Shown: positions 29,904 through 49,632 of the stretch, piece after piece
How positions within the stretch are numbered: position 1 is the stretch's first letter
Layout of the letters: each line of letters begins with the position of its first letter
Source of the DNA: Actinomycetes bacterium
Lineage (GTDB): Bacteria > Actinomycetota > Acidimicrobiia > Acidimicrobiales > Acidimicrobiaceae
Reading direction: 5' to 3'
DNA: 50,057 nucleotides
Assembly (NCBI GenBank): GCA_021785255.1
Contig: JAJYGA010000142.1
Span: 1-50,057 of the forward strand
The notes under the pieces: generated by a model
Told to the model about the DNA's origin: nothing
The model's database searches: none
The model's input: the letters and a program-made list of their open reading frames with translations, nothing else
Translations under genes and position numbers: made by a program

Positions 29904-30047
29904 GTTGCCAGTTTCTTTGACGGTTCCAGGCTCTGTGATAACAGGTGAGTTGCGTACCATAGGACTTTGTAAATACGTCAATCTATAGTGTCTTTAGCGA
30001 TATTGGCGTCTTTGCCCACAGTACTCCTTGAATTAAAAAGGGCAAAG

Positions 30048-30923
30048 ATGGACAGAGGTTTCACCTACGAAGAGTTGAGAACTCAAATCGAAGACGCGAT
30101 CCAAGAACTGATTGACGACGGTGCTTGGAGTGGTTTTTTGGAGTTTGCTTGCAACTTTGCAACATACTCTCCACGAAATACGATTTTAATCTACAACCAA
30201 TGTAAAAGACGTGGCATCGTTCCTTCGTATGTAGCTGGATATCATAGATGGCGCCAACTGGGTCGTTGGGTTAAAAGAGGGGAACGTGGCGTTCGAATTG
30301 TTGTTCCTGTACTCTCAAGGCGACCTAGTGAGCGGATTGCCGTGGAGACGACTCACGTAGCGGAGGAGATCAGCGTTGTCGGATTTAAAAACGCATATGT
30401 CTTTGATCTGTCACAGACCGAGGGTGACGAACTCGTTGTTCCGCTAAGCCCTGTTTCCTTGTCGGGTTCCGGAAACGACGAAGTGGAGAAGTATCTGAAG
30501 ACACAACTGGATAGTAGAGGATTTCAGGTGGTATTGAATGATCTTGAGCGTGGTGTGAACGGTTTTACCGACTTTTCTCAAATGGTTGTGGCTATCTCGA
30601 ACTCTCTTAGCGACAGACAGCGGCTAAAAACCCTCTCTCATGAATATGCTCACGCGGTACTGCATGAAACCAAAGTCATTGATCGAGAGCTTGCTGAGTT
30701 GCAAGCAGAGACATTTGCGTATCTCATGATGACATCGTTGGGGATGGAGACTGCTCAGTACTCGATTCCCTACATACTTCGTTGGGCAAATGGATCGCCG
30801 GATCGGGCTTTGGACGGTTTCGAGATCGCCTATGAACTCTTTATTGACGTTCATTCTGCGCTTGTGGCCACTTGCTCTGCCTTGGGCTGTTCTCACGTGG
30901 CGTTGCACGACGTTGTGGCGTAG
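30048..30923 (+). CDS. ArdC-like ssDNA-binding domain protein with ImmA/IrrE-type metallopeptidase motif
   Basis: A product of about 291 residues. The first half matches the ArdC N-terminal (DUF1738) domain, with FACNFATYSPRNTILIYNQ and the basic YHRWRQLGRWVKRGERGVRI segment. The second half has a zinc-metallopeptidase HEYAH motif at residues 198-202 and a downstream AELQAETFAYL glutamate region. ArdC proteins, usually on plasmids, protect incoming single-stranded DNA from restriction; ImmA/IrrE peptidases cleave repressors. The ATG at 30048 has AAAGGG upstream; a GTG at 29988 would add 20 residues. A chromosomal location with a DUF3293 neighbour is unusual. Catalysis is inferred from the motif only. 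Confidence 0.82.
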   Translation: MDRGFTYEELRTQIEDAIQELIDDGAWSGFLEFACNFATYSPRNTILIYNQCKRRGIVPSYVAGYHRWRQLGRWVKRGERGVRIVVPVLSRRPSERIAVETTHVAEEISVVGFKNAYVFDLSQTEGDELVVPLSPVSLSGSGNDEVEKYLKTQLDSRGFQVVLNDLERGVNGFTDFSQMVVAISNSLSDRQRLKTLSHEYAHAVLHETKVIDRELAELQAETFAYLMMTSLGMETAQYSIPYILRWANGSPDRALDGFEIAYELFIDVHSALVATCSALGCSHVALHDVVA

Positions 30924-31657: not shown

Positions 31658-33565
31658 TTGAACTTAAAGAGACCGAGTATCGTAGCGGGCGTTATAACGC
31701 TTTTGATGTCAGTGCTTTGCCAGGGATCAAATCTCCTCCATGTACGAAGCAACGCTTTAGTGTCGAACGCGATAGAGATGCACCAAGTAACGATGTCTCG
31801 CTTTGGGATGAGTCGACTTTCTTCTTACTCTTTCTCCCAAGGGTATTGGGAGGTTGCGTCAGACGGCGGTATCTTCACCTTTGGAGACGCCGGCTTCTAT
31901 GGATCGATGGGCGGAAAACATCTTAACAAGCCTGTGGTAGGAATGGCTTCTACCCCAGATGGAAAGGGGTATTGGGAGGTTGCGTCAGACGGCGGTATCT
32001 TCACCTTTGGAGACGCCGGCTTCTATGGCTCCATGGGCGGACACCCTCTCAATCAGCCTATAGTTGCGATGGCTTCTACCCCAGATGGAAGAGGATACTG
32101 GGAGGTTGCGTCAGACGGCGGTATCTTCACCTTTGGAGACGCCGGCTTCTATGGATCAACAGGTGGCATGCCGATCTCGGGCAAGGTGGTCGCCATGGCT
32201 TCTACCCCAGATGGAAGAGGATACTGGTTAGCAACGAGCACCGGTGACGTCTTCGCATTTGGAGACGCAGTCTTTGGAGGATCAATGGGGTCCCATATTT
32301 TAAATAGGCCAGTTGTTTCAATTGTGTCTACCCCAGATGGAAGAGGATACTGGCTTATAGCCTCAGACGGCGGTATCTTCACCTTTGGAGACGCCGGCTT
32401 CTATGGTTCTATGGGCGGACACCCTCTCAATCGACCTGTGGTTGGGGGGTTTTCTAGTCCAAGCGGCTATGGGTACTGGGAGGTTGCCTCAGACGGCGGT
32501 ATCTTCACCTTTGGAGACGCCGGCTTCTATGGATCAATGGGCGGACACCCTCTCAATCAACCTGTGGTGGGAGGATCTCAAGTAGGAGCTATTCCTTATT
32601 CCCAACTGCCGGGTCCCGGCTTGAGTTCAAATCGTACGGTCGCAACGTTTTATTATCCCTGGTGGGGAACTCCTCCTTCGGTGGTGACGTGGGAACACTG
32701 GAATCAAAATAATCACAATCCTGCTGTCGGTGATATTGCTTCAAACTTCTATCCCATGGGCGGTCCTTACTCGCAAGCTTTACAGGCAACTGTCGACAAC
32801 CAGATGTCGTTGATGAACCAAGCTGGAATAAATGAACTCATATCCTCATGGTGGGGACAGGGGTCTATAGAAGATCAAAGATTGAATTTGGTAGTCCCTT
32901 CTGCTAGGGCACATGGAATCAACGTGGCAGTCCTGATAGATGGCTATGCAGGGAGAACGATATCGTCAATAAGTTCAGATATAGCCTATTTGAGATCAAA
33001 ATGGGGGATAACGGACTTCTTCTTCTGGAACCCTACAGAGTACTCCGCAGCTTCGTGGCACGCGCTCACGTCTACGTTGTCCGGCGTGAAACTCTTTGCA
33101 ACAGGAAATCCAGGACAGATGATGACAGGGCAGTTCGAACAGTGGGCTGCAGCCTCGGGTTTCCAGGGGATATTTACTTATGACGTCTATGATGAACAAC
33201 CCTCGGACTTCGGTCCCACCTGCTATCAGGCCCATCTTTACGGACTTTTGTGTTCTCCATCGGTTGGACCAGGATTTATCGATCAAAGAGCCAACAATGA
33301 CAGCAGATATCGTTCTCGACAAAACGGGTCCAACTACGACGCCATGTGGCGAGGTGCTTTAGCTTCTAACCCGGACTTCATTACCATAACATCCTTCAAC
33401 GAATGGCACGAGGGTACTCAGATCGAGCCAGCTCAAGCCATGTGTATTCCGTCATATTGCTATCATAACTACAACGGAGCATATGGACTCAGCGGGATCG
33501 CCGCCTCTTATGCCTATATAAATAGGACCGCCTTTTGGTCCAAGATGTACATGAATGGTATTTAG
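31658..33565 (+). CDS. Secreted GH99-like glycosidase with six N-terminal surface repeats
   Basis: A 635-residue protein. Residues 1-25 look like a signal peptide (KRPSIVAGVITLLMSVLCQG). Residues about 62-313 are six consecutive 42-residue repeats built on GYWEVASDGGIFTFGDAGFYGSM-like units followed by a variable loop such as HPLNQPVVAMASTPDG. The rest begins VATFYYPWWGTPPS and contains FNEWHEGTQIEPA (residues 580-592), the GH99 (endo-alpha-mannosidase-like) active-site motif with Glu582 and Glu585. It probably cleaves alpha-mannan or other polysaccharide outside the cell, with the repeats as an attachment or binding module. The start is TTG with GGGAGGG upstream. Confidence 0.85.
   Translation: MNLKRPSIVAGVITLLMSVLCQGSNLLHVRSNALVSNAIEMHQVTMSRFGMSRLSSYSFSQGYWEVASDGGIFTFGDAGFYGSMGGKHLNKPVVGMASTPDGKGYWEVASDGGIFTFGDAGFYGSMGGHPLNQPIVAMASTPDGRGYWEVASDGGIFTFGDAGFYGSTGGMPISGKVVAMASTPDGRGYWLATSTGDVFAFGDAVFGGSMGSHILNRPVVSIVSTPDGRGYWLIASDGGIFTFGDAGFYGSMGGHPLNRPVVGGFSSPSGYGYWEVASDGGIFTFGDAGFYGSMGGHPLNQPVVGGSQVGAIPYSQLPGPGLSSNRTVATFYYPWWGTPPSVVTWEHWNQNNHNPAVGDIASNFYPMGGPYSQALQATVDNQMSLMNQAGINELISSWWGQGSIEDQRLNLVVPSARAHGINVAVLIDGYAGRTISSISSDIAYLRSKWGITDFFFWNPTEYSAASWHALTSTLSGVKLFATGNPGQMMTGQFEQWAAASGFQGIFTYDVYDEQPSDFGPTCYQAHLYGLLCSPSVGPGFIDQRANNDSRYRSRQNGSNYDAMWRGALASNPDFITITSFNEWHEGTQIEPAQAMCIPSYCYHNYNGAYGLSGIAASYAYINRTAFWSKMYMNGI
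31841..32596 (+). repeat. Six tandem 126-bp repeats in the GH99-like gene
   Basis: Units start at 31841, 31967, 32093, 32219, 32345 and 32471, each exactly 126 bases. A core of about 41 bases encoding DGGIFTFGDAGFYG is essentially identical at the DNA level in units 1, 2, 3, 5 and 6. Unit 4 has diverged (WLATSTGDVFAFGDAVFGGS). The identity in third codon positions points to recent duplication or gene conversion. Confidence 0.9.
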
Positions 33566-34510: not shown

Positions 34511-34891
34511 ATGAAACATATATATAGGGTTCGTCGTTCCACCTGGTATCTGCTTTTGTCGTTCGTTTTTTTCTTTGTTCTATATCTCTATGTCCGACCC
34601 AAACAAGTGGCTATATACGTGTCTAATCCTTACCCTGTCATTTCCACGACCACGACACTGCCACCAACTACGACAACTGAGGCCCGTGTCGCGACCACGA
34701 TACCGAGAACCACTACAACCTCTTCGACCACTACCACGACAACGTCGACAACTGTAGTGGGAAGCACAACCTCTTCGACGACCACCACTACGACAACGTC
34801 GACCACGATACCCAGAACCACTACGACCTCTTCGACGACCACCACTACGACAACGTCGACGACGTCCAAGTCGTCGTCTTCAGCTACGTAG
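34511..34891 (+). CDS. Membrane-anchored Thr-rich low-complexity protein
   Basis: A 126-residue protein with a basic cytoplasmic N-terminus, one membrane helix (residues about 11-27, WYLLLSFVFFFVLYLYV) and an extracytoplasmic domain of about 80 residues made almost only of Thr, Ser and Pro with PRTTTTSSTTTTTT repeats. No enzyme motif. Such a tail is likely extended and may be O-mannosylated or wall-spanning. The gene starts one base after the MscS stop, so it may be a channel partner. A similar low-complexity tail ends the penicillin-binding protein. Function unknown. Confidence 0.75.
   Translation: MKHIYRVRRSTWYLLLSFVFFFVLYLYVRPKQVAIYVSNPYPVISTTTTLPPTTTTEARVATTIPRTTTTSSTTTTTTSTTVVGSTTSSTTTTTTTSTTIPRTTTTSSTTTTTTTSTTSKSSSSAT
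34690..34860 (+). repeat. Three imperfect direct repeats in the Thr-rich gene
   Basis: The units 34690-34749, 34763-34803 and 34802-34860 share CCTCTTCGAC and the shared end ACGACAACGTCGAC. Units 1 and 3 also share ACCACGATACC and GAACCACTAC. They encode the PRTTTTSSTTTTTT repeat and look like recent slippage or duplication. Confidence 0.7.
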
Positions 34892-35950: not shown

Positions 35951-37552
35951 ATGCGAGTTGGTGTTGAGTTCCGATGGTCACGTTTTTTAAGTGGAAGACT
36001 TGGGATGATGTCTAGGTTTCTTACGCGTATGAGAGGTGTGATCATAGCCGGTGCCGCAATGTCGCTGGTATTGGCCTCCTGCGGAGCTAGCACGAGTGCT
36101 AGCTCTTCTACTACGGCAGTATCTACTGCCCCTAAAACCTTGGTTATCGATCAATCCAATTCTCCGGCAACACTGGATCCGGGACTGCAATATGACAGCG
36201 ACAGTGTTGCTGTTTATCGCAACATCTTTGACCAACTTCTCAGGCGTAATCAGAGCACAATGAAGATCGTACCGTGGGTGGCGACCTCTTGGAAGAACGT
36301 GAATCCGACTACTTGGATTTTCAATATTCGTAAAGGAATCAAATTTACCAATGGCATGCCACTAACCGGAGCGGATGTGGCATTTAGTATCAACAGGATT
36401 CTCAGTCCGAGTTTTGCGAGTCCCCAATTTGCTAACTTTAGTGTAATCCAAAGTGCAACTGCGAAAGGACAAGTCGTAACGATCGTCACGAAGGCGCCAT
36501 CGGCTACGCTTTTGACCTATCTCACTACGTTGAGCATAGTTCCTGAGCAGTATGTGCAACAGGTCGGGAATCAGGCCTTTGACCTGCATCCAATTGGATC
36601 TGGGCCCTACAAGTTAGTGAAGTGGGTACAAGGGAGCGAGGTCTTACTTGCAGCCAATAATAGTTATTGGGCAGGGAAACCCCCCTATCCATTTGTAGAG
36701 TTTCGTACCGTTCCAAATGCTGCCAGTCGTGTTGCTGATCTGCAGTCCGGAGCTGCGGACATTGCCTTGACCTTGAGCCCTGACAATGCAGCACAACTCA
36801 AAGGTAGCACGGGAATAAAGGTGATTGCGGATCCTACGGAGGCTGTTGCTGATCTGTATATGAACTCTCTTCAGGGGCCGACCCAGTCGCTTCAAGTTAG
36901 GAAGGCGATTGCATACGCAATTAATTATTCCTCTCTTATCAAAAATGTAAACCTTGGGTATGCAAAACCCGTCAAGGAGGTTCTGACCCCAGATTCATTT
37001 GGATACACCAATACGGTTCCAGGATTCTCCTACGATCCCGCGAAAGCTAGGCAACTTCTGGCTGCCTCTGGCAATCCCCATCCGTCACTTGTCTTTCCGA
37101 CATCTCCGGCGTTTTCCCCCACGGTAGTCCAAGCGATTCAAGCTGACCTGGAAGCGGTGGGTTTTCGGGTATCCATTGTTACAACAGACCAGCCAACATT
37201 TCTACAGAAAATTCAGTCTCCAGCTCATAATTGGGGACAGATCCGCTACGGCATTTGGAACTGTGGATGCGCAGATGCAGACGGTACGATTTACCCACTG
37301 TTCCATAGCGGCTCGGTGTGGAGTAGCTACTCAAATGCGCAGTTTGATCAGTTGGTGACGGCGGCAAGAACTACTTTGAACACGGCTCAGCGCAAGCAAG
37401 ACTACCGCGAGGCTTTCGCTGTCTTGCAAAAGACGGTACCTGCTGTAGGTCTATGGCAGTACTACGCTATCTATGGCGTAAACAAAAATATCACATGGAA
37501 TCCTGGCCCGCAGGAAACGCTGTTTATCCCCCAAATCCACTGGAAAGGATAG
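35951..37552 (+). CDS. ABC transporter family-5 solute-binding lipoprotein (peptide/nickel type)
   Basis: This 533-residue protein has a lipoprotein signal sequence with the lipobox LASC (modified Cys44) and then the SBP_bac_5 features LVIDQSNSPATLDPGLQYDSD, WVATSWKNVNPTTWIFNIRKGIKFTNGMPLTGADV and RKAIAYAINYS. Family-5 proteins capture oligopeptides, dipeptides, nickel or opines outside the membrane and pass them to DppB/DppC-type permeases, whose genes follow. The first 25 residues are a long basic leader; ATG 36005 is a possible shorter start. The coding region just after the lipobox contains two perfect DNA inverted repeats. Substrate unknown. Confidence 0.9.
   Translation: MRVGVEFRWSRFLSGRLGMMSRFLTRMRGVIIAGAAMSLVLASCGASTSASSSTTAVSTAPKTLVIDQSNSPATLDPGLQYDSDSVAVYRNIFDQLLRRNQSTMKIVPWVATSWKNVNPTTWIFNIRKGIKFTNGMPLTGADVAFSINRILSPSFASPQFANFSVIQSATAKGQVVTIVTKAPSATLLTYLTTLSIVPEQYVQQVGNQAFDLHPIGSGPYKLVKWVQGSEVLLAANNSYWAGKPPYPFVEFRTVPNAASRVADLQSGAADIALTLSPDNAAQLKGSTGIKVIADPTEAVADLYMNSLQGPTQSLQVRKAIAYAINYSSLIKNVNLGYAKPVKEVLTPDSFGYTNTVPGFSYDPAKARQLLAASGNPHPSLVFPTSPAFSPTVVQAIQADLEAVGFRVSIVTTDQPTFLQKIQSPAHNWGQIRYGIWNCGCADADGTIYPLFHSGSVWSSYSNAQFDQLVTAARTTLNTAQRKQDYREAFAVLQKTVPAVGLWQYYAIYGVNKNITWNPGPQETLFIPQIHWKG
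36084..36130. repeat. Two adjacent perfect inverted repeats inside the solute-binding protein gene
   Basis: GAGCTAGCAC-GA-GTGCTAGCTC (36084-36105, ten-base arms) is followed after nine bases by GGCAGTA-TC-TACTGCC (36115-36130, seven-base arms). They encode the flexible Ser/Thr linker after the lipobox Cys. Both have only two central bases, so they may act as cruciforms or binding sites rather than small-loop hairpins. Confidence 0.75.
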
Positions 37553-37658
37553 CTCAAGAGGCAAGAGTCCGAGGGTCTGAGTTCATTGTAAGTACTATGC
37601 CAGACCCTTTTGGACTCTTTGTTGTTGCAACTTGGAAAACGCTGCAGGAAGGAGTCTG

Positions 37659-38990
37659 ATGAGTCCAATTGTTGATCGATGGGGAGAACCGCTAACCACT
37701 CGTCATCGGGATGCAATGGAGCTGTTTTCGGATGGAGTGGAAGCTTTAGCGGGACTCATGGGAGATGTTTTCAACTTTGCTAATTTGGCGATCTCAATTG
37801 ACGAGACGTTTACGCTTTCGTTATGTTTGCAAGCGTATTTGGTGCTGTATGCGATGACCGGCGAAGCCATGAGAACGGCTGGTCAACTGCTTGAACGTAT
37901 TGATGGACTCGGAGAAGTTCCCGACAAACGAACACAGCTTCATGTCAAGGCTTTGCGCTACTGGTCTTGTGGAGATTTCGCGAGCGCTTTAGTCACCTTA
38001 GAGGATCTTTTAAAGATCTGTCCAAGGGACCTATTGGCCGCAAAGGTGGCCCAGGACCTGTGCTTGTTTGTAGGAGATACCGTTGGCCTCCATGATGTGG
38101 CAATACGGGCCCTTGGACAATGGGATAGAGATCTCCCTCGATATGATCTCTTAATGGGTATGCATTCTTTTGGTCTGGAAGAAAATTACGAGTATACCCT
38201 GGCTGACGTTTTGGGCCGCGATGCGCTGGAGATGAATGCCTACAACGTGTACGCTCGCCACTCGGTTGGTCATGTCTATGAGATGGTGGGATCAAAACGA
38301 GAAGGTATCAAGTATTTCCTTTCTTGTGAAGAGAACTGGTCAATGAGCTCAAGTGCAGTGCACATGTGGTGGCACCTTTCGCTTTTGTATTTAGATAATG
38401 GTCAAGATGAAGAAGTATTGGGTCTTTATGATCGTAAATTGTGTGGAAGAGTTCCAGCAACCATGCATGATATTACTGATCGAGCATCTTTACTGTGGCG
38501 TCTTCATCTGCTTGGTCACTCCAATGACGGTCGAATTAAAGATTTGGTCGAGGAGGCTGAAAGTTTTGTTGGAGACTCTGTTTATGTTTTCAACGAACTG
38601 CATCTCGTTCTCGTCTATCTTTTGGCCGGAGACGTCATGGGAGCAGAAAGGGTCATTTTATTCATGAGCAAGAGATCATGTGATGGATATGACGGTCGTC
38701 TTTTAAACGAAGTTGGCATTCCCATAGCAAACGCGCTGGTGGACTTTGCTCAAGGACATTACGAGAGAGCAGCGGTCTCTCTCTGTAGTTTGAAGTACCG
38801 GCTAGTTGAAATTGGCGGAAGCCACGCGCAACGCGATTTTGTTCAAGAGACTGCTATCGTAGCTGCTGCAGCGGCTAAAGATGAGAACCTTGTACTTGCT
38901 TTATCGCACGAAAGGAATCTGGCAAGACCTGATACTGAATCTACCACGAACCGCTTAGTGTCCTCAGGGCGGGCGAAAGCGCGAGAATGA
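37659..38990 (+). CDS. TTC38-type tetratricopeptide repeat protein
   Basis: A 443-residue helical protein with the order of motifs I know from the TTC38 family: TFTLSLCLQAYLVLYAM, LHVKALRYWSCGDFASAL, YDLLMGMHSFGLEENYEYTLA, GRDALEMNAYNVYARHSVGHVYEM and SSSAVHMWWHLSLLYLDNGQDEEVL. TTC38 proteins have tetratricopeptide-like repeats and no known reaction. It starts at ATG 37659 with AAGGAG upstream, 106 bases after the binding-protein gene. Being between a solute-binding protein and its permeases is unusual and suggests a cytoplasmic accessory or sensing role in the same pathway. Confidence 0.8.
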   Translation: MSPIVDRWGEPLTTRHRDAMELFSDGVEALAGLMGDVFNFANLAISIDETFTLSLCLQAYLVLYAMTGEAMRTAGQLLERIDGLGEVPDKRTQLHVKALRYWSCGDFASALVTLEDLLKICPRDLLAAKVAQDLCLFVGDTVGLHDVAIRALGQWDRDLPRYDLLMGMHSFGLEENYEYTLADVLGRDALEMNAYNVYARHSVGHVYEMVGSKREGIKYFLSCEENWSMSSSAVHMWWHLSLLYLDNGQDEEVLGLYDRKLCGRVPATMHDITDRASLLWRLHLLGHSNDGRIKDLVEEAESFVGDSVYVFNELHLVLVYLLAGDVMGAERVILFMSKRSCDGYDGRLLNEVGIPIANALVDFAQGHYERAAVSLCSLKYRLVEIGGSHAQRDFVQETAIVAAAAAKDENLVLALSHERNLARPDTESTTNRLVSSGRAKARE

Positions 38991-39123: not shown

Positions 39124-40056
39124 TTGGGAAGATTTATAGTTCGACGGTTGATTCAAGCGGCACTTTCGCTCTTTGGCGTACTAACTATCGTGTTTTTTGT
39201 AGTGCGTCTTACTGGAAATCCAGTTCGGTTATTAGTACCTCAAAATGCCAGCGCGGCCGACATTGCCAGGCTCACTCATCAATTGGGACTTGATCGCCCT
39301 TTGCTTGATCAGTACGGTACATTCTTGGTAAATATTTTGCATGGTAATTTGGGCTATTCTTACGTACAGAGTCAGCCTGCTTTGGGGATCGTACTGGGAA
39401 GATTCCCAAACACGGTGGAACTTGCCATCTCGGCGCTGTGTTTTAGTCTCGTATTTGCCATTCCGATCGGGTTCTTAACTGCATATTTTCGTGGAAAGTG
39501 GATCGAGAGATTGCTGATGCCGGTTGTAGCCCTCGGTCAAAGTATGCCTGCTTTTTGGAGTGGAATACTTCTCGTATTGGTGTTCGCGGTTCATTGGCGT
39601 ATCCTGCCATCGTCTGGACAAGGTGGAATCAAGGCTTTGATCCTTCCATCGATAACATTGGGAATGATCACATTGGCATCAATTGCCCGTATATCCAGGG
39701 TGTCTTTCTTGGAGCAGCTGAATAAGGATTATGTTAGAACTGCGAGGACTAAAGGGGCCTCGACCGCTCGAGTGATGGTTGTTCATGTTTTTCGAAATGC
39801 CTTACTACCTGTTATTACCATGGTCGGTCTCGAAGCGGCAAACCTGCTTGGAGGAGCAGTGATAACGGAGGAAATTTTTGCATGGCCAGGGATCGGGCAA
39901 CTGACTGTACAATCGGTGCAAAGTAGTGATTTCCCCGTCGTAGAAGCAGTTGTGCTGGTTGCTTCGGCCGTTTATATCCTCACAAATCTTTCGGTGGACT
40001 TGCTCTATGGAATCATAGATCCTCGAGTACGGATTAAAAGGGTAGGATCTCGATGA
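39124..40056 (+). CDS. Dipeptide/oligopeptide ABC transporter permease (DppB/OppB type)
   Basis: A 310-residue protein with about six membrane helices. The N-terminal MGRFIVRRLIQAALSLFGVL and the DPPB family segment GNPVRLLVPQNASAADIARL precede the permease core, in which the cytoplasmic EAA-type loop reads RTARTKGASTARVMVVHVFRNALLP and GAVITEEIFAWPGIGQL. It carries substrate from the solute-binding lipoprotein across the membrane with the downstream DppC-type partner, energised by the two ATPases further on. The start is TTG with AAGGCGGG upstream. Its end overlaps dppC by four bases. Confidence 0.93.
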   Translation: MGRFIVRRLIQAALSLFGVLTIVFFVVRLTGNPVRLLVPQNASAADIARLTHQLGLDRPLLDQYGTFLVNILHGNLGYSYVQSQPALGIVLGRFPNTVELAISALCFSLVFAIPIGFLTAYFRGKWIERLLMPVVALGQSMPAFWSGILLVLVFAVHWRILPSSGQGGIKALILPSITLGMITLASIARISRVSFLEQLNKDYVRTARTKGASTARVMVVHVFRNALLPVITMVGLEAANLLGGAVITEEIFAWPGIGQLTVQSVQSSDFPVVEAVVLVASAVYILTNLSVDLLYGIIDPRVRIKRVGSR

Positions 40057-40937
40057 GTCAGACCAAGGTAGCACCTGATTTTCTCGCTCGATCGACATCT
40101 AGGAAGATGAAGGCTTTCCGACTTAGGAAAGTTCTGCGCTGGTGGCCCCTTTTGATAATTTTGATTGCTCTTGTGGCTGCTGCTTTCCCTTCAGTATTGG
40201 CACCATATAATCCGGATTTGACTAATCTTGCTGCCAGACTCGAAGGTCCGGGCTTCAGATATGGTGCGCAGCACTTCTTGTTGGGAACGGACAGCCTGGG
40301 ACGCGACGTTCTCAGTCGAGTTATATGGGGTGTTCGTCCTTCTGTAGTTGTTGCAGTTGTGGCAGTGCTAGTTGCTGGCGTATCAGGTAGCACGTTAGGC
40401 ATAGTTGCCGGAACCATCGAAGGTGGTGTCGGTACGATTATAATGCGATTTGCCGACATGGTACTTTCGATTCCCTTCTTTTTGCTCGCAATTCTTGTCG
40501 TAGCCGCCTTGGGTCCAAGTTTGGTAAACGTCGTTGTCGTTCTGGCATTGGTGCGATGGCCTATATATGCACGCGTGGCATATGGACAAAGTATCGAGGT
40601 GTCTAAACGGGAGTCAGTTCGTTCGGCCATTGCTCTTGGAGCGAGACAATGGAGAGTGATGAGATATCATATTTTGCCTGAGGTTTTAGCACCGCTGATT
40701 GTAGTAGCGACTTTGGAAGTCGGATCCATGATCGTGTATGAAGCAGCCTTATCTTTTATTGGGCTTGGAACACAGCCCCCAGCGCCAAGTTGGGGTTCAA
40801 TGTTGTCTGAAGGTGAGCAGTACGTATCTACGGCCTGGTGGATCTCCACGTTTCCTGGTTTGGCTCTATTTGTGTTGGCCCTCAGTGTTAATCGACTAGG
40901 CGATTTAATTCGCGATGTCCTTGACCCAAAGAGTTGA
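40053..40937 (+). CDS. Dipeptide/oligopeptide ABC transporter permease (DppC/OppC type)
   Basis: A 294-residue protein with an N-terminal helix (residues 28-50), the FLLGTDSLGRDVLSRVIWGVRPS motif of DppC, and an EAA loop SAIALGARQWRVMRYHILPE followed by FIGLGTQPPAPSWGSML. It heterodimerises with the preceding permease in the membrane. The ATG overlaps the permease stop by four bases. The SDR gene starts 24 bases later. Confidence 0.93.
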   Translation: MSQTKVAPDFLARSTSRKMKAFRLRKVLRWWPLLIILIALVAAAFPSVLAPYNPDLTNLAARLEGPGFRYGAQHFLLGTDSLGRDVLSRVIWGVRPSVVVAVVAVLVAGVSGSTLGIVAGTIEGGVGTIIMRFADMVLSIPFFLLAILVVAALGPSLVNVVVVLALVRWPIYARVAYGQSIEVSKRESVRSAIALGARQWRVMRYHILPEVLAPLIVVATLEVGSMIVYEAALSFIGLGTQPPAPSWGSMLSEGEQYVSTAWWISTFPGLALFVLALSVNRLGDLIRDVLDPKS

Positions 40938-40961: not shown

Positions 40962-41750
40962 ATGGTGGAGCAAGTGGGTGAATCTATGGGAAGGGAATTT
41001 GAGTCAAAAGTAGTAGTAATTACGGGTGCAGCGGGAGTTATTGGCACTTGGATTGCAGATGCCTTTGCCGCTGAGGGAGCAATCTTGGTTCTTTCGGATA
41101 AGCGGCGTGACCAACTCGATTCGATGAAAAAAGAGGGAAGATGGGGAGCGTCCGAGGTTTTGATCCATGAAAGTGAACTATCAGATGCTGAGTCTTTGAA
41201 GGACTTGGTCTCTGCTGTTGAAAAACGATGGGGAGCGCCTCATATTCTCGTGAACAATGCGGGGGTGTACCCGCACAGTCCTTTGCTGGAAGTTGAATTA
41301 GAGGAGTGGAATCGCATAATCAATGTCAATCTTACGGCACCATTTGTCTTGACAAAGTCTTTTGCTGGGCTGATGATCGGAAAAGGGATACGGGGTTCTA
41401 TCGTAAATATCCTTTCAGGAGCGTCTCTGACCGTTAGTCGCAACGGTGTCCCTTACTCGGTCTCAAAGGCGGCACTTTTGATGCTGACTCGAGGATCGGC
41501 ACTCGAACTTGCTCCTCACAAGATTCGAGTAAACGGAGTGTCTCCGGGGTTTGCTGCCGGTAGCGAGGTCAGTCCGCTGGACAATGATTACGTGGAGAGA
41601 ATGATTCGTTCGATTCCGCTTGGGAGAATGTCAGGACCAAACGATGCAGCTAGTGCTGTGTTATATCTAAGTTCAGAAAAAGCGTCCTTTATAACTGGAA
41701 CAATGCTATCAGTGGATGGTGGTCGCACGGCGGGCCCGGTGACGTTGTGA
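40962..41750 (+). CDS. Short-chain dehydrogenase/reductase
   Basis: This 262-residue classical SDR has the nucleotide-binding TGAAGVIG near residue 20, NNAGVYP, the catalytic Ser in ILSGAS, Tyr165-xxx-Lys169 (YSVSK), and the C-terminal SVDGGRTAG. It interconverts an alcohol and a ketone with NAD(P)H. Length and motifs are complete. The substrate is not readable. The reading frame overlaps the next gene by four bases, so it belongs to the transport/hydrolase cluster, where it may oxidise a product released from the imported compound. ATG at 40962 or 40986 may start translation. Confidence 0.9.
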   Translation: MVEQVGESMGREFESKVVVITGAAGVIGTWIADAFAAEGAILVLSDKRRDQLDSMKKEGRWGASEVLIHESELSDAESLKDLVSAVEKRWGAPHILVNNAGVYPHSPLLEVELEEWNRIINVNLTAPFVLTKSFAGLMIGKGIRGSIVNILSGASLTVSRNGVPYSVSKAALLMLTRGSALELAPHKIRVNGVSPGFAAGSEVSPLDNDYVERMIRSIPLGRMSGPNDAASAVLYLSSEKASFITGTMLSVDGGRTAGPVTL

Positions 41751-42583
41751 TATATCCGTGGCCTGATGGAAAAAAAATGGCTTGCATCATTAGCTTGGAT
41801 TTTGATGGTGCGACACCGTATCTTTGGAATACTAGACAGAATCCAACAGGTGCTCTTGGTGAACTGGAACTTAGGAGATTCGGTCCACGACAAGGTATTT
41901 GGCGACTGTTGGATCTGTTTAAGTCGTTGGATCTGCGGGTGTCTGTGTACATACCAGGTGCAATAGTCGGGAGCTATCCAGACGCGGTCAAGGCCATCGC
42001 TGAAAATGGTCACGAGATAGGCCTTCACGGCTTCATGCACGAACATATTAGGGATCTTTCAGATGTTGAATTTGCTGTCTCGATGGAAAAGTCCATGTCG
42101 GCTATGGCGAAAGTTGGTATAGATGGACCTTTTGGATTTCGAAGCCCAGCGTGGGATTTAACTGAAAGCGCTCTAATGGTTCTTGAAAGATTTGGGGTCA
42201 GCTATGACAGTTCGCTTATGGGATTTGATCAGCCATATTGGATTTCAAAGATGGTAGAACTGCCGGTACAGTGGCCGCTGGACGACGCGATTTTTTATCG
42301 TTATGTGCCTGGATCTATGTGGCCTCCGGTAAGGGCAGAAGATGTGGTTGGATCATGGAGGCTGGAGTTAGAAGGCGCTAAAAGATATCAATCGTTGTTC
42401 ATGCTTACCATGCACCCTTGGCTCTCTGGGAGAAGCGGTCGTCTGGTAGCTCTAGAAGGACTGTTAAAAGATTACCGAGATGATCCGGAGATTTGGTGGA
42501 CTACGTCTGACGAGCTCGCGCATTATCACAGGCAACGTTTCCCAGAAGGCCCGTTCCACGATATTCGTCTTGGAAGTCCATAG
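41747..42583 (+). CDS. Polysaccharide-deacetylase-fold hydrolase (NodB/PuuE-like)
   Basis: A 278-residue protein of carbohydrate esterase 4 fold: motif 1 SLDFDGATP (an acidic pair around the metal), motif 2 HEIGLHGFMHEH with the metal-binding histidines, motif 3 RSPAWD, and LTMHP near the end. It lacks a signal peptide. This intracellular subgroup includes allantoinase-like PuuE, H. pylori PgdA and cyclic-imide hydrolase, so amide or imide hydrolysis is as likely as sugar deacetylation. The GTG start overlaps the SDR stop; OppD follows two bases after its stop. The call of the fold is firm, the substrate open. Confidence 0.82.
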   Translation: MIYPWPDGKKMACIISLDFDGATPYLWNTRQNPTGALGELELRRFGPRQGIWRLLDLFKSLDLRVSVYIPGAIVGSYPDAVKAIAENGHEIGLHGFMHEHIRDLSDVEFAVSMEKSMSAMAKVGIDGPFGFRSPAWDLTESALMVLERFGVSYDSSLMGFDQPYWISKMVELPVQWPLDDAIFYRYVPGSMWPPVRAEDVVGSWRLELEGAKRYQSLFMLTMHPWLSGRSGRLVALEGLLKDYRDDPEIWWTTSDELAHYHRQRFPEGPFHDIRLGSP

Positions 42584-42585
42584 AT

Positions 42586-43638
42586 ATGCAACCTCTCGAA
42601 GCTAGCACGATGTTTAAAGCGACCAATGATCTGTTGCTTGACGTAGATGAGTTGAGCGTGGGTGTCAACGTTGCGGGTAGGGAAATAGGTGTACTTTCCA
42701 ATGTGTCTTTTAACGTCGGCAAAGGGGAAATTGTAGGGGTCGTTGGTGAGAGTGGATGTGGTAAAAGCCTGACCGCATTGGCGATCATAGGCCTATTGGG
42801 CGACAACGTACGCATTACGGGAGGAACGATAACCCTTGACGGTGAAAGAATATCGTCTTTATCTTCGACTCAAATGCGCAAGATCAGGGGAAGTCGGATC
42901 GGCATGATATTTCAAGAACCGATGGTGGCACTGAATCCTCTCATGAGGGTGGGACGCCAAGTAAAAGAGGTGCTTGTTATTCATGCGATTGGGAATCGTA
43001 AAAGCAGGAAGGCGCGAGTGCTGGAACTATTTAGGCAGGTGGGACTTCCAGATCCTAAGCTGCGATATCGACAGTTCCCACATCAACTGTCAGGAGGAAT
43101 GAGACAGCGTGTCATGATAGCTATGGCTTTAGCAGCTGAACCGAAATTGCTTATAGCCGACGAACCTACGACCGCTTTAGATGTTACAGTGCAAGCACAG
43201 ATCCTTGATCTCTTGGAAGATATTCGTACCAGACTGGGAACTTCGGTTGTGCTGGTCACCCATGACATGGGAGTGGTATCAGAAGTTGCCGATCGAGTGG
43301 TAGTTATGTATGCAGGCCAAGTGGTTGAAAGTGCACCTGTGGCTGAGTTGTTCGAAAATGCACGACACCCTTATTCAGTAGGACTGTTGGGTAGTGTGTT
43401 TGGTTCCAACTTCGAAGAATCCAGCGATGAACTACCGACGATATCAGGCAGAGTGCCTTCTATTGGAGAAGTTCCATCTGGCTGTCCTTTTGAGCCACGA
43501 TGTGAAAACGCGATAGATGTCTGCAGATCGGATAGGCCTCCCGCAGCTTCGGTAGGTACCAATCACATAGTTGCTTGTTGGTCTCCTGTTGAGTTGCCGC
43601 GTATGCGCTTGTTCGGAAAGGGGGTCGAATCGAGTTGA
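42586..43638 (+). CDS. Oligopeptide ABC transporter ATPase (OppD/DppD type)
   Basis: This 350-residue ATPase has Walker A GESGCGKS at residues 54-61, the Q-loop FQEPMVALNP, the signature LSGGMRQRV, Walker B LLIADEPTTALDVT, and the peptide-transporter C-terminal domain with CPFEPRCENAIDVC, whose cysteines resemble the [4Fe-4S]-binding tail of DppD/OppD. It pairs with the following ATPase to drive the DppBC-type permease. The start lies two bases after the deacetylase-like gene, and the stop overlaps the next gene by four bases. Confidence 0.95.
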   Translation: MQPLEASTMFKATNDLLLDVDELSVGVNVAGREIGVLSNVSFNVGKGEIVGVVGESGCGKSLTALAIIGLLGDNVRITGGTITLDGERISSLSSTQMRKIRGSRIGMIFQEPMVALNPLMRVGRQVKEVLVIHAIGNRKSRKARVLELFRQVGLPDPKLRYRQFPHQLSGGMRQRVMIAMALAAEPKLLIADEPTTALDVTVQAQILDLLEDIRTRLGTSVVLVTHDMGVVSEVADRVVVMYAGQVVESAPVAELFENARHPYSVGLLGSVFGSNFEESSDELPTISGRVPSIGEVPSGCPFEPRCENAIDVCRSDRPPAASVGTNHIVACWSPVELPRMRLFGKGVESS

Positions 43639-44777
43639 ACGAAGCAGAAGGTGCAGGAGGCTCCTCCTTGGGAGATTTACCGACGAACAGTGGACGACAA
43701 CATCTTGCAGCTAGAACAGGGCGAGTAGAGGTCATCGAAGGGAAGAAGCCCGAAGACTTGGTCAAAGTCGAAAACTTGTGTAAAAACTACAGTCTTGGTG
43801 GTTTCAGAAGCAAGAACAGAGTGTTGCGTGCCGTATCGGATGTGTCGTTTACGATCTCGGCAGGTCGAACGTTTGGTTTGGTCGGAGAGACAGGGTCGGG
43901 CAAGTCTACTATTGGTAAGCTCACTTTGGGGTTGGAAACTCCGTCTTGGGGACGGGTGATGGTTGCAGGCAATGATTTGGCTCTGCTCTCCAAAAAGGAA
44001 CTAAGAGATCTGCGGCGAGAGATGCAGCCGGTTTCACAGGATCCGTACTCTGCTCTGAATGGACGAATGCGAGTTAGAGACATCCTAGGCGAACCTTTCA
44101 TAATCCATAAAACTGCAGATAAAAGGGAACTGCATAGCTTGGTTCAAGATCTCTTGGAGTTGGTCGATCTACCCAAAGACGCTATTGACAGATTTCCTCA
44201 CCAGTTTTCTGGTGGACAACGTCAGCGACTTGTGATAGCAAGAGCAGTAGCGTTGAGGCCGAGATTCGTCGTGGCGGACGAACCACTATCGGCGCTGGAC
44301 GTTTCGGTTCAGGCGCAAATAATTAATTTGTTCAAGAAACTCCAGCGTGAGTTTAATCTGACCTATCTGTTCATCTCCCACGATCTATCAGTTGTTCGGT
44401 ATCTATCCGACGTAGTGGGAGTCATGTACTTGGGCAGGTTGGTGGAGCTTGGGACTAGGGACGACGTGTTTTCCGACGCTTCACACCCCTATACGCAAGC
44501 TCTTTTGGCTTCGGCTCCTGCCGTTGGAACGAAGAAACTAGTCGAAAAACGACGGCTTCATCTTTACGGTGATCCTCCTGCGGTATTAGACGGATTCTCT
44601 GGTTGTGTATTTAACAGCCGCTGTCCGATCGCCGAGTCCCGTTGTTTCGAGCAGACGCCTGAATTTAGAGATTTGGGCGAAAACCACATGGTTGCTTGTC
44701 ATTTTGCGCCTGTGAGTGTGGATGTTCTTTCTAAAGCGGTGGAAAGAAGAAGCGCCAAGGCTGAGAGTCAGGATTGA
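43635..44777 (+). CDS. Oligopeptide ABC transporter ATPase (OppF/DppF type)
   Basis: This 380-residue ATPase has Walker A GETGSGKST, Q-loop PVSQDPYSALNGRM, signature FSGGQRQRL, Walker B FVVADEPLSALDVS and the C-terminal CVFNSRCPIAESRC tail. It starts with TTG overlapping the OppD stop. The first 45 residues are a polar extension that precedes the usual VENLCKNYSLGG start of the ATPase domain. The penicillin-acylase gene begins 10 bases after its stop. It completes a full two-permease, two-ATPase and binding-protein import system in one cluster. Confidence 0.95.
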   Translation: MNEAEGAGGSSLGDLPTNSGRQHLAARTGRVEVIEGKKPEDLVKVENLCKNYSLGGFRSKNRVLRAVSDVSFTISAGRTFGLVGETGSGKSTIGKLTLGLETPSWGRVMVAGNDLALLSKKELRDLRREMQPVSQDPYSALNGRMRVRDILGEPFIIHKTADKRELHSLVQDLLELVDLPKDAIDRFPHQFSGGQRQRLVIARAVALRPRFVVADEPLSALDVSVQAQIINLFKKLQREFNLTYLFISHDLSVVRYLSDVVGVMYLGRLVELGTRDDVFSDASHPYTQALLASAPAVGTKKLVEKRRLHLYGDPPAVLDGFSGCVFNSRCPIAESRCFEQTPEFRDLGENHMVACHFAPVSVDVLSKAVERRSAKAESQD

Positions 44778-44787
44778 TAGTACCGAT

Positions 44788-47127
44788 ATGACAGTTCATG
44801 CGCAAAGATCAAATTCCAGTGAAGTTGTGATTGCCGGGGTGGAAGATTTTGTATGTATTTCCAGGGATCAATATGGGGTACCCCATATTGAGGCAGATTC
44901 AGAGCTAGATGCTTGGTTGGGCCTGGGTTTTGCCGCTGCCTCAGATCGCATGTTTCAAATGGACTATGACCGGCGTCGAGCATCGGGACGACTTGGGGAG
45001 ATTCTGGGCAAGGACGTCCTGCGCGCGGACATGTTAGCTCGGCGTTTGGACCTAACAGCTTCGTCCAAAAGAGACTATGAGCTTCTGTCGGAAGGAACAA
45101 AAGCAATATTTGAGGCGTATACCCGTGGTGTCAATGGATCGCTGGCGAACAGGGAACAAAGTAGCGAGGAACGTATACTTGGAACTGTTTACGAACAATG
45201 GGAGCCGTGGCAATCTATAGCCATTTTCAAGGTGCGACACGTATTGATGGGTCTTTGGCAGCACAAGTTGGCTCGAGCGATTCTGTACTCGAAGGTTGGA
45301 CGAGAGATCTACGAGCAGTTAGAAGACAGACCCCCTTTGGGTTCTCCATTGACTCTACCCCCTTTAGCAAGACTCGACGAACTTGTAGGTACTGTGGAAA
45401 GCGATCTTGCCGAGGTTGAAAAACATCTTGGTTTTTTCTCTGAAGTTGAAGCTGGATCCAATGCTTGGGCTGTTTGCGGATCCTTGATTGTCGACGGTGG
45501 TTCGTTGCTGTGCAATGACTCCCACAGGGCGCTAGATGTTCCCAACGTGTACTGGCAAGCTCATCTAAAGTGCCCCAACTTTGAGGTTGCAGGAGCTACG
45601 TTCCCGGGATTACCCGGGTTCCCACATTTTGGACGTAACAAGGATGTAGCGTGGGCCATCACTCACGCAGGAGCGGATACTCAGGACCTGTTCATCGAGG
45701 TGTTTGATCAAAGTGATCCCGAACTCTATCGTAGTGCGGGCGGTCTCAGGCGTGCGAGAAGGAGGATTGAGACCATATATCTGCGTGATAGCGCACCGGT
45801 TGATGTAGAGTTATGGCAGACTGAAAACGGTCCGATAGTTCACGGCGATCCTCTAAAAGGTACTGCGCTTTCGCTGAGATGGACTGGCTTTCATAATAAC
45901 TCTTCTACTTTCGAAGTTCTTGTATCCATGCTTGGTAGTTCTACGGTAGATGAACTGAACGCTTCACAGATCGGATGGGTGGACCCGGTAAATAATTTGG
46001 TATCTGTTGACAAAAATGGATCGATAGCGTATCTGTTGAGAGGTGCTCTGCCTGTCAGGACCTCCGCATCTGGTAGGCAGGTGCCGGTAAATGGGTGGAG
46101 TTATGAGTCGCCCTGGAGGGGAATAGTTCCCTTTGATGCGATGCCTAGAGCAGTGAACCCCGAGTCAGGGTTCATCATGACTGCAAATAACGCTATTTTA
46201 AGTGGCGAAGACCCATATATCTCCATGAGCTTCGCAGATCCGTTTCGAGCTGAGAGACTTCGAGAACAACTCGCAAGCTCGAAGTTGTTTACAAAGGAAG
46301 ATCTTTCAAAGTTGCAGCGCGATGTTACATCATGGGCGGCAGTTGCTTGGTGCAAGTATCTATCTGATATGGAGCCTCTGGAGTCTGTTATTGGGGAAAA
46401 AAGTAGGGCATTTCTAGCGCAGTGGAATGGCGTACTCAGTCCGGATTCGGGATCAGCCTTGCTGTATGGATGCTTTAGACGCTCTCTTGCAGAGTGCATC
46501 TACCGTCCCTTGTTGGGGGATGAAACGTGGGAATGGGCAATCTCAGGGAAACTTGCGCCGACCGCGGTCATGATACGGAGATGGTTGGCCAATGATACTT
46601 GGGACATTCTTGGAGGACCGAGGCCTAATGACTACGATTCGGAGAAGTTGGCGGCGAGCGTTGAACGAGTGAGGGCAGTTGTCCCCGTTGCTCTTGAAAA
46701 TGCATGGATATCGGCCGAGATGATGTCGGGGCCGGATCCCTCCCATTGGAGGTGGGGAGACCATCACTACGTTGTTCCAAACCACCCCCTTGCTTCCATG
46801 GCCAGGGATCAAGGGATGGACATAAATCCACCTACCGTGCAGATGGGAGGTGACTCAGATACGATCCAGGCGGCAAGCTATGGCTGGAGACAAAATGAAC
46901 CGTTCGTTGTCACGAATCTGTCGGTGTATCGCCAAGTTGTCGATCTGGCAGGCAATGACTACAGCTGGGTCATACCTGGTGGTGCTTCTGGAGATCCAAC
47001 GTCAGGTCATTTTGCGGATCAGTTCAAGTTGTGGGAGACCCATGAGAGATTTGCGATGAACTTTGGCATAAGAGGATGTGATGCTGAGGAGGAACCGTTG
47101 GTGATTCTCGTCGGAGATGGAGCGTGA
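44788..47127 (+). CDS. Penicillin-acylase-family Ntn hydrolase, apparently cytoplasmic
   Basis: A product of about 779 residues of the penicillin amidase (S45) family. N-terminal motifs include RDQYGVPHIEADSELDAWLGLGFAAASDRMFQMD and the autoprocessing site GSNAW, in which Ser224 would become the N-terminal nucleophile of the large beta chain; the alpha chain is about 220 residues. NDSHRALDVPNVYWQ and PGLPGFPHFGRNKDVAWAITH follow. Relatives cleave acyl amides (penicillins, acyl-homoserine lactones, aculeacin). Unlike most, it has no signal peptide. The ATG at 44788 is used; upstream starts overlap OppF. Location in an import operon suggests hydrolysis of an imported amide inside the cell. Confidence 0.88.
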   Translation: MTVHAQRSNSSEVVIAGVEDFVCISRDQYGVPHIEADSELDAWLGLGFAAASDRMFQMDYDRRRASGRLGEILGKDVLRADMLARRLDLTASSKRDYELLSEGTKAIFEAYTRGVNGSLANREQSSEERILGTVYEQWEPWQSIAIFKVRHVLMGLWQHKLARAILYSKVGREIYEQLEDRPPLGSPLTLPPLARLDELVGTVESDLAEVEKHLGFFSEVEAGSNAWAVCGSLIVDGGSLLCNDSHRALDVPNVYWQAHLKCPNFEVAGATFPGLPGFPHFGRNKDVAWAITHAGADTQDLFIEVFDQSDPELYRSAGGLRRARRRIETIYLRDSAPVDVELWQTENGPIVHGDPLKGTALSLRWTGFHNNSSTFEVLVSMLGSSTVDELNASQIGWVDPVNNLVSVDKNGSIAYLLRGALPVRTSASGRQVPVNGWSYESPWRGIVPFDAMPRAVNPESGFIMTANNAILSGEDPYISMSFADPFRAERLREQLASSKLFTKEDLSKLQRDVTSWAAVAWCKYLSDMEPLESVIGEKSRAFLAQWNGVLSPDSGSALLYGCFRRSLAECIYRPLLGDETWEWAISGKLAPTAVMIRRWLANDTWDILGGPRPNDYDSEKLAASVERVRAVVPVALENAWISAEMMSGPDPSHWRWGDHHYVVPNHPLASMARDQGMDINPPTVQMGGDSDTIQAASYGWRQNEPFVVTNLSVYRQVVDLAGNDYSWVIPGGASGDPTSGHFADQFKLWETHERFAMNFGIRGCDAEEEPLVILVGDGA

Positions 47128-47353: not shown

Positions 47354-48205
47354 TTAGTCGGTATATGTGCTATCAGATTTTCTTATTAATGTGGCGATTC
47401 TAGCCTTTGAGGAGTTGGGTAAATTGCTCGATGAGTTCATATTTTTCAACACAGATATGAGGTGTGCTGTACAAGCGTCTTTGGCTTGATCGGGATTGCG
47501 ATCTGAGATGGCGTGAGCCATGGTTTCGTGATGAATGTACCATTGTTTTAGAAGTGGCGCGTTAATCCAAGCTCGATCGCGGGCTGATCTGAATACAGCG
47601 TCTTCTCCAAGATTCAACAGTCGTTCTGCAGCATCAACTAGAGCTTTGTTCCTGCACACGCGGATTAACGTGGTGTGAAATACCAAGTCTGAGTGGGCGC
47701 GCATCTCAGGTTCAGAAAGCGCTAACTCCATGCCTTCGAGAATTCTCTTGACGTTTCTTAACTCTGATGCTAAAGGATCTTCCGCTGCTAGTGCAATTAC
47801 GAAGGGTTCTAATTCGAGTCTGGCCTCCATGACATCCAGGGGATCGTAGGTGCGGATGCCCTCAGTTGATATGAGAGAACGTGATCCACGTTCGACGGAA
47901 GAGATGACGATAGTTCCAGATCCTTGCCTCGGCTCTAGATAACCCTCGAACTGCAAACAGCTGAGGGCTTCTCTTATGGACGCCCTGCTTACCTTGAACG
48001 CCTTGGCAAGTTCCTGCTCTCCTGGTAATCTGGATCCGACGGGAAATTCTCCAATCTGAATTGCGCGGATTAGCTGTGAGGCGACTTGGGCAAAAAGCGG
48101 AGTAGGTTTGTCAATGCCCTTGAAACGTGGGAAACTCGCAGAAAGTCCGTCAGTACGTTCGTCAGCTTCTTCTGCATTGGTTGATTCACTGGAGTGTGCG
48201 GCCAT
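47354..48205 (-). CDS. GntR-family transcriptional regulator with FCD domain (FadR subfamily)
   Basis: A 283-residue protein on the opposite strand. After a polar 35-residue leader comes a winged helix-turn-helix LFAQVASQLIRAIQIGEFPVGSRLPGEQELAKAFKVSRASIREALSCLQFEGYLEPRQGSGT, the GntR signature, and then an all-helical FCD ligand-binding domain with the conserved Asp/His metal-binding region (ARLELEPFVIALAAED, SDLVFHTTLIRVCRN, HHETMAHAIS). FCD regulators sense carboxylates, sugar acids or acyl-CoA. It is convergent with the acylase and likely controls the cluster. The ATG at 48205 fits the family. Confidence 0.9.
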   Translation of the reverse strand: MAAHSSESTNAEEADERTDGLSASFPRFKGIDKPTPLFAQVASQLIRAIQIGEFPVGSRLPGEQELAKAFKVSRASIREALSCLQFEGYLEPRQGSGTIVISSVERGSRSLISTEGIRTYDPLDVMEARLELEPFVIALAAEDPLASELRNVKRILEGMELALSEPEMRAHSDLVFHTTLIRVCRNKALVDAAERLLNLGEDAVFRSARDRAWINAPLLKQWYIHHETMAHAISDRNPDQAKDACTAHLISVLKNMNSSSNLPNSSKARIATLIRKSDSTYTD

Positions 48206-49183: not shown

Positions 49184-49609
49184 TTAGCTCGGTCTCCTTT
49201 GGTTCTCTATGTATGTCTGTAATACATCCAGGCTTGCGCCTCCTGCCGATCCGACAAAATACGACGGTGACCAGAAGTGTGTTCCCCATAAGTACTTCCT
49301 TACTTGTGATGACCTCTGTTTGCGTAGCATCCTTGCCGACACGCCCTTGAGAGAATTAACAAGACGAGATAGCTGTAGGGTTGGTGGATACTCAACCAGG
49401 AGATGCACATGATCGTCCTCTCCGTTGAACTCGATTAGACGAACGCCAAAGTCAACACAAACTTGTTCCATTGCTGCTTTACAGACATTAAGCAGATCGT
49501 CGTTGAATACACCTCTTCTATATTTAGTAACAAAGACCAAGTGAGCCTGAAGCGAACAGACTACGCTCCTACCTCTACGGAACTCTTTAGGAAGCGTGCT
49601 GACTGTCAT
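49184..49609 (-). CDS. tnpA: IS200/IS605-family transposase TnpA (Y1 HUH)
   Basis: A protein of about 141 residues with the Y1 transposase features: HLVFVTKYRRGVF at the N-terminus, the metal-binding HUH pair His67 and His69 in DDHVHLLVEYPP, and the catalytic tyrosine Tyr133 in LDVLQTYIENQ, with FWSPSYFVGSAGG just before it. TnpA cuts and joins single-stranded DNA at the hairpin ends. The ATG at 49609 is used; a TTG nine bases earlier is possible. The copy looks intact and could be active. Confidence 0.93.
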   Translation of the reverse strand: MTVSTLPKEFRRGRSVVCSLQAHLVFVTKYRRGVFNDDLLNVCKAAMEQVCVDFGVRLIEFNGEDDHVHLLVEYPPTLQLSRLVNSLKGVSARMLRKQRSSQVRKYLWGTHFWSPSYFVGSAGGASLDVLQTYIENQRRPS

Positions 49610-49632
49610 GTAGACCAAGTATAATAGTAGTC

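Follow-up and report, generated by a model that had tools for sequence, protein, structure and literature searches.

A TTC38-Type TPR Protein as an Optional and Possibly Enzymatic Module of an Opp-Type ABC-Import Operon

Genes and Features of the Locus

The stretch of DNA analysed here (50,057 nucleotides, referred to as the window) carries an ABC-import operon with a gene for a TTC38/StaR-like TPR protein inside it (Table 1). The identities of the neighbouring genes were assigned by Pfam and NCBIfam profile searches, which bore out the S45 acylase, deacetylase-fold hydrolase and SDR named in the initial annotation. As in peptide-nickel ABC operons of the Opp/Dpp/Nik type, an SBP_bac_5 solute-binding protein (SBP) is combined with two permeases and two ATPases; the window operon differs from that type in the added SDR, NodB/PuuE-fold hydrolase and S45 acylase, and in the TTC38 gene itself.

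Table 1. Coordinates of the features of the operon in the window.
Feature	Position	Strand	Evidence or remark
Family-5 solute-binding protein (SBP), lipoprotein-like N-terminus	35951..37552	+	SBP_bac_5, 256 bits
Imperfect hairpin, SBP-TTC38 intergenic	37563..37618	+	AAGAGTCC..GGGTCTG / CAGACCC..GGACTCTT
Shine-Dalgarno-like AGGAAGGAG	37646..37654	+	4 nt upstream of ATG 37659; from sequence
TTC38/StaR-like TPR protein	37659..38990	+	Intact ORF: ATG 37659, stop ends 38990, 443 aa
OppB-type permease	39124..40056	+	BPD_transp_1, 149 bits
OppC-type permease	40053..40937	+	BPD_transp_1, 97 bits
SDR oxidoreductase	40962..41750	+	adh_short_C2, 180 bits
NodB/PuuE-fold hydrolase	41747..42583	+	Polysacc_deac_1, 52.8 bits
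OppD-type ATPase	42586..43638	+	ABC_tran and oligo_HPY
OppF-type ATPase	43635..44777	+	ABC_tran and oligo_HPY
S45 penicillin-amidase-family acylase	44716..47127, likely start ATG 44788	+	Penicil_amidase, 554 bits
GntR/FCD regulator, convergent with operon	47354..48205	-	GntR and FCD

The TTC38 gene lay exactly where the initial annotation had placed it, between the SBP and the permeases, with gaps of 106 nt from the SBP stop codon and 133 nt to OppB, and the ribosome-binding site claimed for it was present. An alternative in-frame TTG at 37632 would add nine residues; the homologue in locus L007, a MAG contig, begins in alignment at the same methionine as ATG 37659. Most of the genes downstream of TTC38 overlap or almost abut, unlike its own flanks, and its base composition is similar to that of its neighbours.

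The hairpin between SBP and TTC38 folded at -36.8 kcal/mol, compared with -29.3 in shuffles (z -2.4). Hairpins are often found 3' of SBP genes, where they set the excess expression of the SBP, and this one perhaps stabilises the mRNA or terminates transcription in part. The TTC38-OppB intergenic region did not fold better than shuffles, and a scan for promoters and terminators found no more than it did in shuffles.

No signal peptide or membrane segment was apparent in the TTC38 translation, and the protein is therefore probably cytosolic. The S45 acylase, which carries the N-terminal-nucleophile serine motif GSNAW, and the NodB/PuuE-fold hydrolase likewise had no obvious signal peptide, so degradation would probably be cytosolic too. 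Within NCBIfam the hydrolase most closely resembled allantoinase PuuE, at a score under the cut-off, and is probably a cytoplasmic, allantoinase-like enzyme. The genome has two S45 acylases, about 53% identical (window 44716-47127 and L112:298-2622). The L112 copy, which adjoins molybdenum-cofactor-like genes, has a syntenic counterpart in the sister species G274; the acylase of the operon thus looks like the additional one.

Upstream of the operon, the window encodes a secreted-looking protein in which about 6-7 repeats of the YWEVASDGGIFTFGDAGFYGSMGG type are joined to a GH99-like domain (31658-33565), and a short protein with one membrane segment followed by a long Thr/Ser-rich tail (34511-34891). 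The flanking regions contain an ArdC N-terminal and M78 peptidase-like protein (29988-30923) and an IS200-type transposase (49184-49618).

Family Assignment

Pfam matched the window protein with TPR_14 alone, at 20.4 bits and below the cut-off of 23.5, unlike canonical TPR clamp proteins. NCBIfam returned nothing, and no TTC38 model matching the protein was found in either collection. The assignment was made because the protein aligns over its full length with its relatives: 17 members were collinear end to end over approximately 440 residues, and human TTC38 gave 179 bits and 28% identity over 447 columns, a comparison that counts as a lead more than as a test. In the tree, the human sequence nested within the bacterial members, and the window and L007 proteins formed a separate clade (100/100).

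The TTC38-type identity proposed in the initial annotation therefore stands, and judged by its sequence the protein is a further bacterial member of the known TTC38/StaR-like family, to which StaR of the A47934 glycopeptide cluster also belongs. It shares with that family the full-length collinearity, four histidines, W238, R281, F311 and the GGSxAQR motif; it differs in being a bacterial protein from an Opp catabolic operon, in its distance from human TTC38 and in the clade that it forms with L007.

Genome searches found TTC38 in 29 of the 248 genomes of the window's taxonomic order. By tblastn, relatives turned up in 55 plasmid records, with full-length identities of up to about 33%. No phage-borne relatives were found in viral_contigs; a single pattern match there (L113) was rejected as a GalE-like gene.

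An AF2 model computed from two sequences, those of the window and L007, consisted of helical hairpins throughout, with a pLDDT of 74 that fell below 50 at residues 159-210; the model is therefore too shallow to inform on the geometry of the histidine cluster described below. Foldseek searches with the model returned generic TPR and helical-repeat proteins only (best E 1.7e-3).

Invariant Residues and Human TTC38

Eleven positions were invariant in 49 of 49 homologues (D6, H201, H205, H235, W238, H239, R281, F311, G386, S388 and Q391), and D124, H315 and A390 were nearly so. The human sequence carries the same polar and aromatic site. The histidines form two HxxxH pairs, H201-H205 and H235-H239, in which H201 and H235, and H205 and H239, are each 34 residues apart. 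As 34 residues is one TPR period, the two pairs are expected next to each other on consecutive A-helices. Clamps of known TPRs are built from positions 5 and 9 of helix A, which line the concave groove, and the HxxxH pairs appear to match these positions.

Panobinostat is a hydroxamate, and hydroxamates chelate metal. Human TTC38 is described as a known direct target or off-target of this compound in lysate and in cells (PMC6885700; PMC9118197). Rare damaging variants of human TTC38 raise an unidentified urine metabolite, X-22162 (PMC7878905), and a TTC38 missense association has also been described (PMC5780481). A literature search did not identify X-22162, and the papers found gave no metal, cofactor or activity for any member of the family. 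The panobinostat binding and the X-22162 variants fit an enzyme, perhaps one with a metal, and stop short of proof.

Linkage with the Opp Operon in Other Genomes

The MAG contig L007 contained TTC38-OppB-OppC-SDR-PUUE-OppD-OppF in the same order as the window, at identities of 50, 74, 72, 64, 61, 64 and 62%, respectively, TTC38 being the most divergent protein between the two operons. Because gene order is kept in an independent MAG at 50% TTC38 identity, the linkage of TTC38 with the Opp genes is not due to chance.

Genome G376, from the same taxonomic order as the window, has an operon (locus L107) with GntR, SBP, OppB, OppC, SDR, PUUE, OppD, OppF and S45 genes at 46-70% identity to those of the window, the SBP at its head being 67% and the regulator upstream of it 46% identical. 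There, OppB follows directly after SBP with a gap of 57 nt, and a search of the whole genome found no TTC38 anywhere. TTC38 was also not found in the sister species G274. Two of the three genomes with the operon thus carry TTC38 and G376 does not, and the complete G376 operon rules TTC38 out as an obligate Opp component. TTC38 is therefore a conserved and dispensable insert, that is, an accessory module and no part of the transporter.

Genomic Context of TTC38 Genes

The context survey covered 34 stretches around Actinobacteria TTC38 genes and 22 plasmid stretches; among plasmid stretches without annotation, L008-L010 were compared by sequence and L114 and L115 were left out. Opp, PUUE or S45 genes directly beside TTC38 occurred in the window and L007 only, with approximately 54 other loci lacking them and one partial case. 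An Opp ATPase and SDRs lay some kilobases upstream of TTC38 in Tateyamaria (L019), and a PUUE relative lay 3.6 kb from TTC38 on the opposite strand in L073. The enrichment of TTC38 beside opp, S45 and deacetylase-fold (PuuE-fold) genes that the initial annotation had suggested looking for is thereby ruled out as a general rule. Random neighbourhoods, which it had named as counter-evidence, were not what we found either: TTC38 genes sat in recurrent catabolic operons of other kinds. As for the proposed tie to Opp and acylase function, the Opp linkage is kept in L007, but the operon exists without TTC38 in G376 and the survey shows no special tie. The Opp-operon position is real, conserved and optional, and does not single out an acylase or amidase function.

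The recurring neighbours were genes for a P450, an acyl-CoA-dehydrogenase-type desulfinase, a type III CoA transferase, a ThDP enzyme, an SDR and gamma-glutamylation. The order P450-TTC38-acyl-CoA-dehydrogenase homologue was present in 13 of 14 loci of one Acidimicrobiales clade (L065-L068, L070, L072, L076, L077, L080-L082, L085 and L086), often with a CaiB-type CoA transferase and ALDH. The homologue beside TTC38 scored above the NCBIfam equivalog cut-off for 3-sulfinopropanoyl-CoA desulfinase. Desulfinases over this cut-off were found in 15 of 29 TTC38-positive and 0 of 39 TTC38-negative genomes (Fisher p 2e-7, a value inflated by relatedness and by unsystematic choice of the negatives), and 13 of the 15 lay within 2.5 kb of TTC38. 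The literature search yielded no paper that connects TPR proteins to 3-sulfinopropionyl-CoA.

Like the window locus, these operons come from the Acidimicrobiales and hold TTC38 within a catabolic operon; they differ from it in lacking opp, S45 and PuuE-like genes. The window genome contained no desulfinase over the cut-off, so the desulfinase pathway does not explain the window locus. Since TTC38 contexts differ between clades, they do not reveal the substrate of the window locus.

In Mesorhizobium, from another TTC38 clade, the same P450 (57%) and desulfinase (62%) were accompanied by gamma-glutamyl ligase and hydrolase genes. The Mesorhizobium loti plasmid cluster (L014:2711-13708) encodes a P450, a ferredoxin, an APC permease, a glutamine-synthetase-like ligase, TTC38, a gamma-glutamyl hydrolase, a sulfate-exporter-like protein and a 3-sulfinopropanoyl-CoA desulfinase, which suggests catabolism of a gamma-glutamylated organosulfur amine.

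Rhizobia showed the order TTC38-small protein-ThDP enzyme-OpgC-CoA transferase, with a different order in Bosea. The small protein is a DUF6789-like protein of 160 aa in the rhizobial loci L016, L118, L119 and L121, and in the last three the cluster lies near sigma-70 and NrsF-type genes. Burkholderiales and Tardibacter had an AraC-TTC38-MFS arrangement. Two loci from the window's taxonomic order (L109:7704-10047 and L110:6712-9987) contained SDR-SDR-PuuE-like hydrolase and a permease, with neither opp nor TTC38; the SDR and PuuE-fold hydrolase are a recurrent pair of their own.

Discussion

We propose, with about an even chance of being right, that the window TTC38 serves an ABC-import operon as an accessory catabolic module and acts as a small-molecule enzyme, plausibly a metal-binding one. 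The Opp transporter would import an amide-type compound, which the cytosolic S45 acylase, the NodB/PuuE-fold hydrolase and the SDR would break down, and TTC38 would add or widen one step of this degradation. It would do so as a cytosolic enzyme built as a TPR alpha-solenoid and acting on a small molecule, whose concave face would hold the two HxxxH pairs on successive repeats together with the Trp, the Arg and the GGSxAQ loop; this invariant cluster plausibly binds a metal ion. We infer that the site is catalytic and metal-binding, and that it acts either on the imported compound or on an intermediate. The proposal is based on an invariant site in all of the divergent homologues with histidines one TPR period apart, the recurrent catabolic operons and the co-occurrence with desulfinase, the human panobinostat and X-22162 data, and an operon that is intact without TTC38 in G376. 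The panobinostat data could also reflect binding through the non-hydroxamate part of the drug, and conserved histidines at concave TPR positions would suit a ligand clamp just as well.

The latter point leads to the best-placed alternative, which we consider somewhat unlikely: TTC38 as a non-catalytic TPR binding protein, a ligand or protein clamp that senses the imported compound or passes it to the acylase, SDR or hydrolase. The solenoid fold obtained with AF2 and Foldseek, the apparent match of the HxxxH pairs to helix-A clamp positions and the accessory status of TTC38 in the operon all agree with this. TPR carboxylate-clamp proteins of the Hop and CHIP type share the solenoid and polar concave residues on helix A; TTC38 differs from them in its His/Trp/Arg cluster and GGSxAQ loop, which are foreign to generic TPR motifs. 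The invariance of these elements in 49 proteins despite very different operon partners is a better fit to a reaction or cofactor.

It is unlikely that TTC38 is an insertion with an unrelated role that has only the transcript in common with the operon. Its absence from the otherwise identical G376 operon and from G274, and its wide flanks beside tightly packed downstream genes, would agree with such an insertion. On the other side stand the linkage and order kept in L007 over the long divergence that 50% identity implies, a base composition close to that of the neighbours and the likewise catabolic operons around other TTC38 genes. It is highly improbable that TTC38 forms part of the Opp transporter or regulates it, for example by coupling SBP to the permeases: its position between SBP and OppB in the window and immediately 5' of OppB in L007 would suit this, but G376 has a complete Opp operon and no TTC38, almost all other TTC38 loci are without opp genes, and the protein is probably cytosolic.

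For the enzyme proposal, the invariant cluster and the P450-TTC38-desulfinase operons are stronger leads than the Opp position. Extended to the whole family, it becomes more tentative, and we regard it as possible and on the doubtful side that TTC38 proteins are an unrecognised enzyme class, TPR-solenoid metalloenzymes whose tetra-histidine site spans two consecutive repeats, with roles in bacterial amide and organosulfur-acid catabolism and in the clearance of X-22162 in humans.

Although conserved all the way from bacteria to humans, TTC38 has not been assigned a function. Compact, testable systems are available in bacteria: the Opp operon, which occurs both with TTC38 and without it, and the tightly coupled P450-TTC38-desulfinase operon. 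Together with the histidine cluster and the panobinostat data, they replace the bare label of a TPR protein with a concrete hypothesis, that of a small-molecule (metallo)enzyme.
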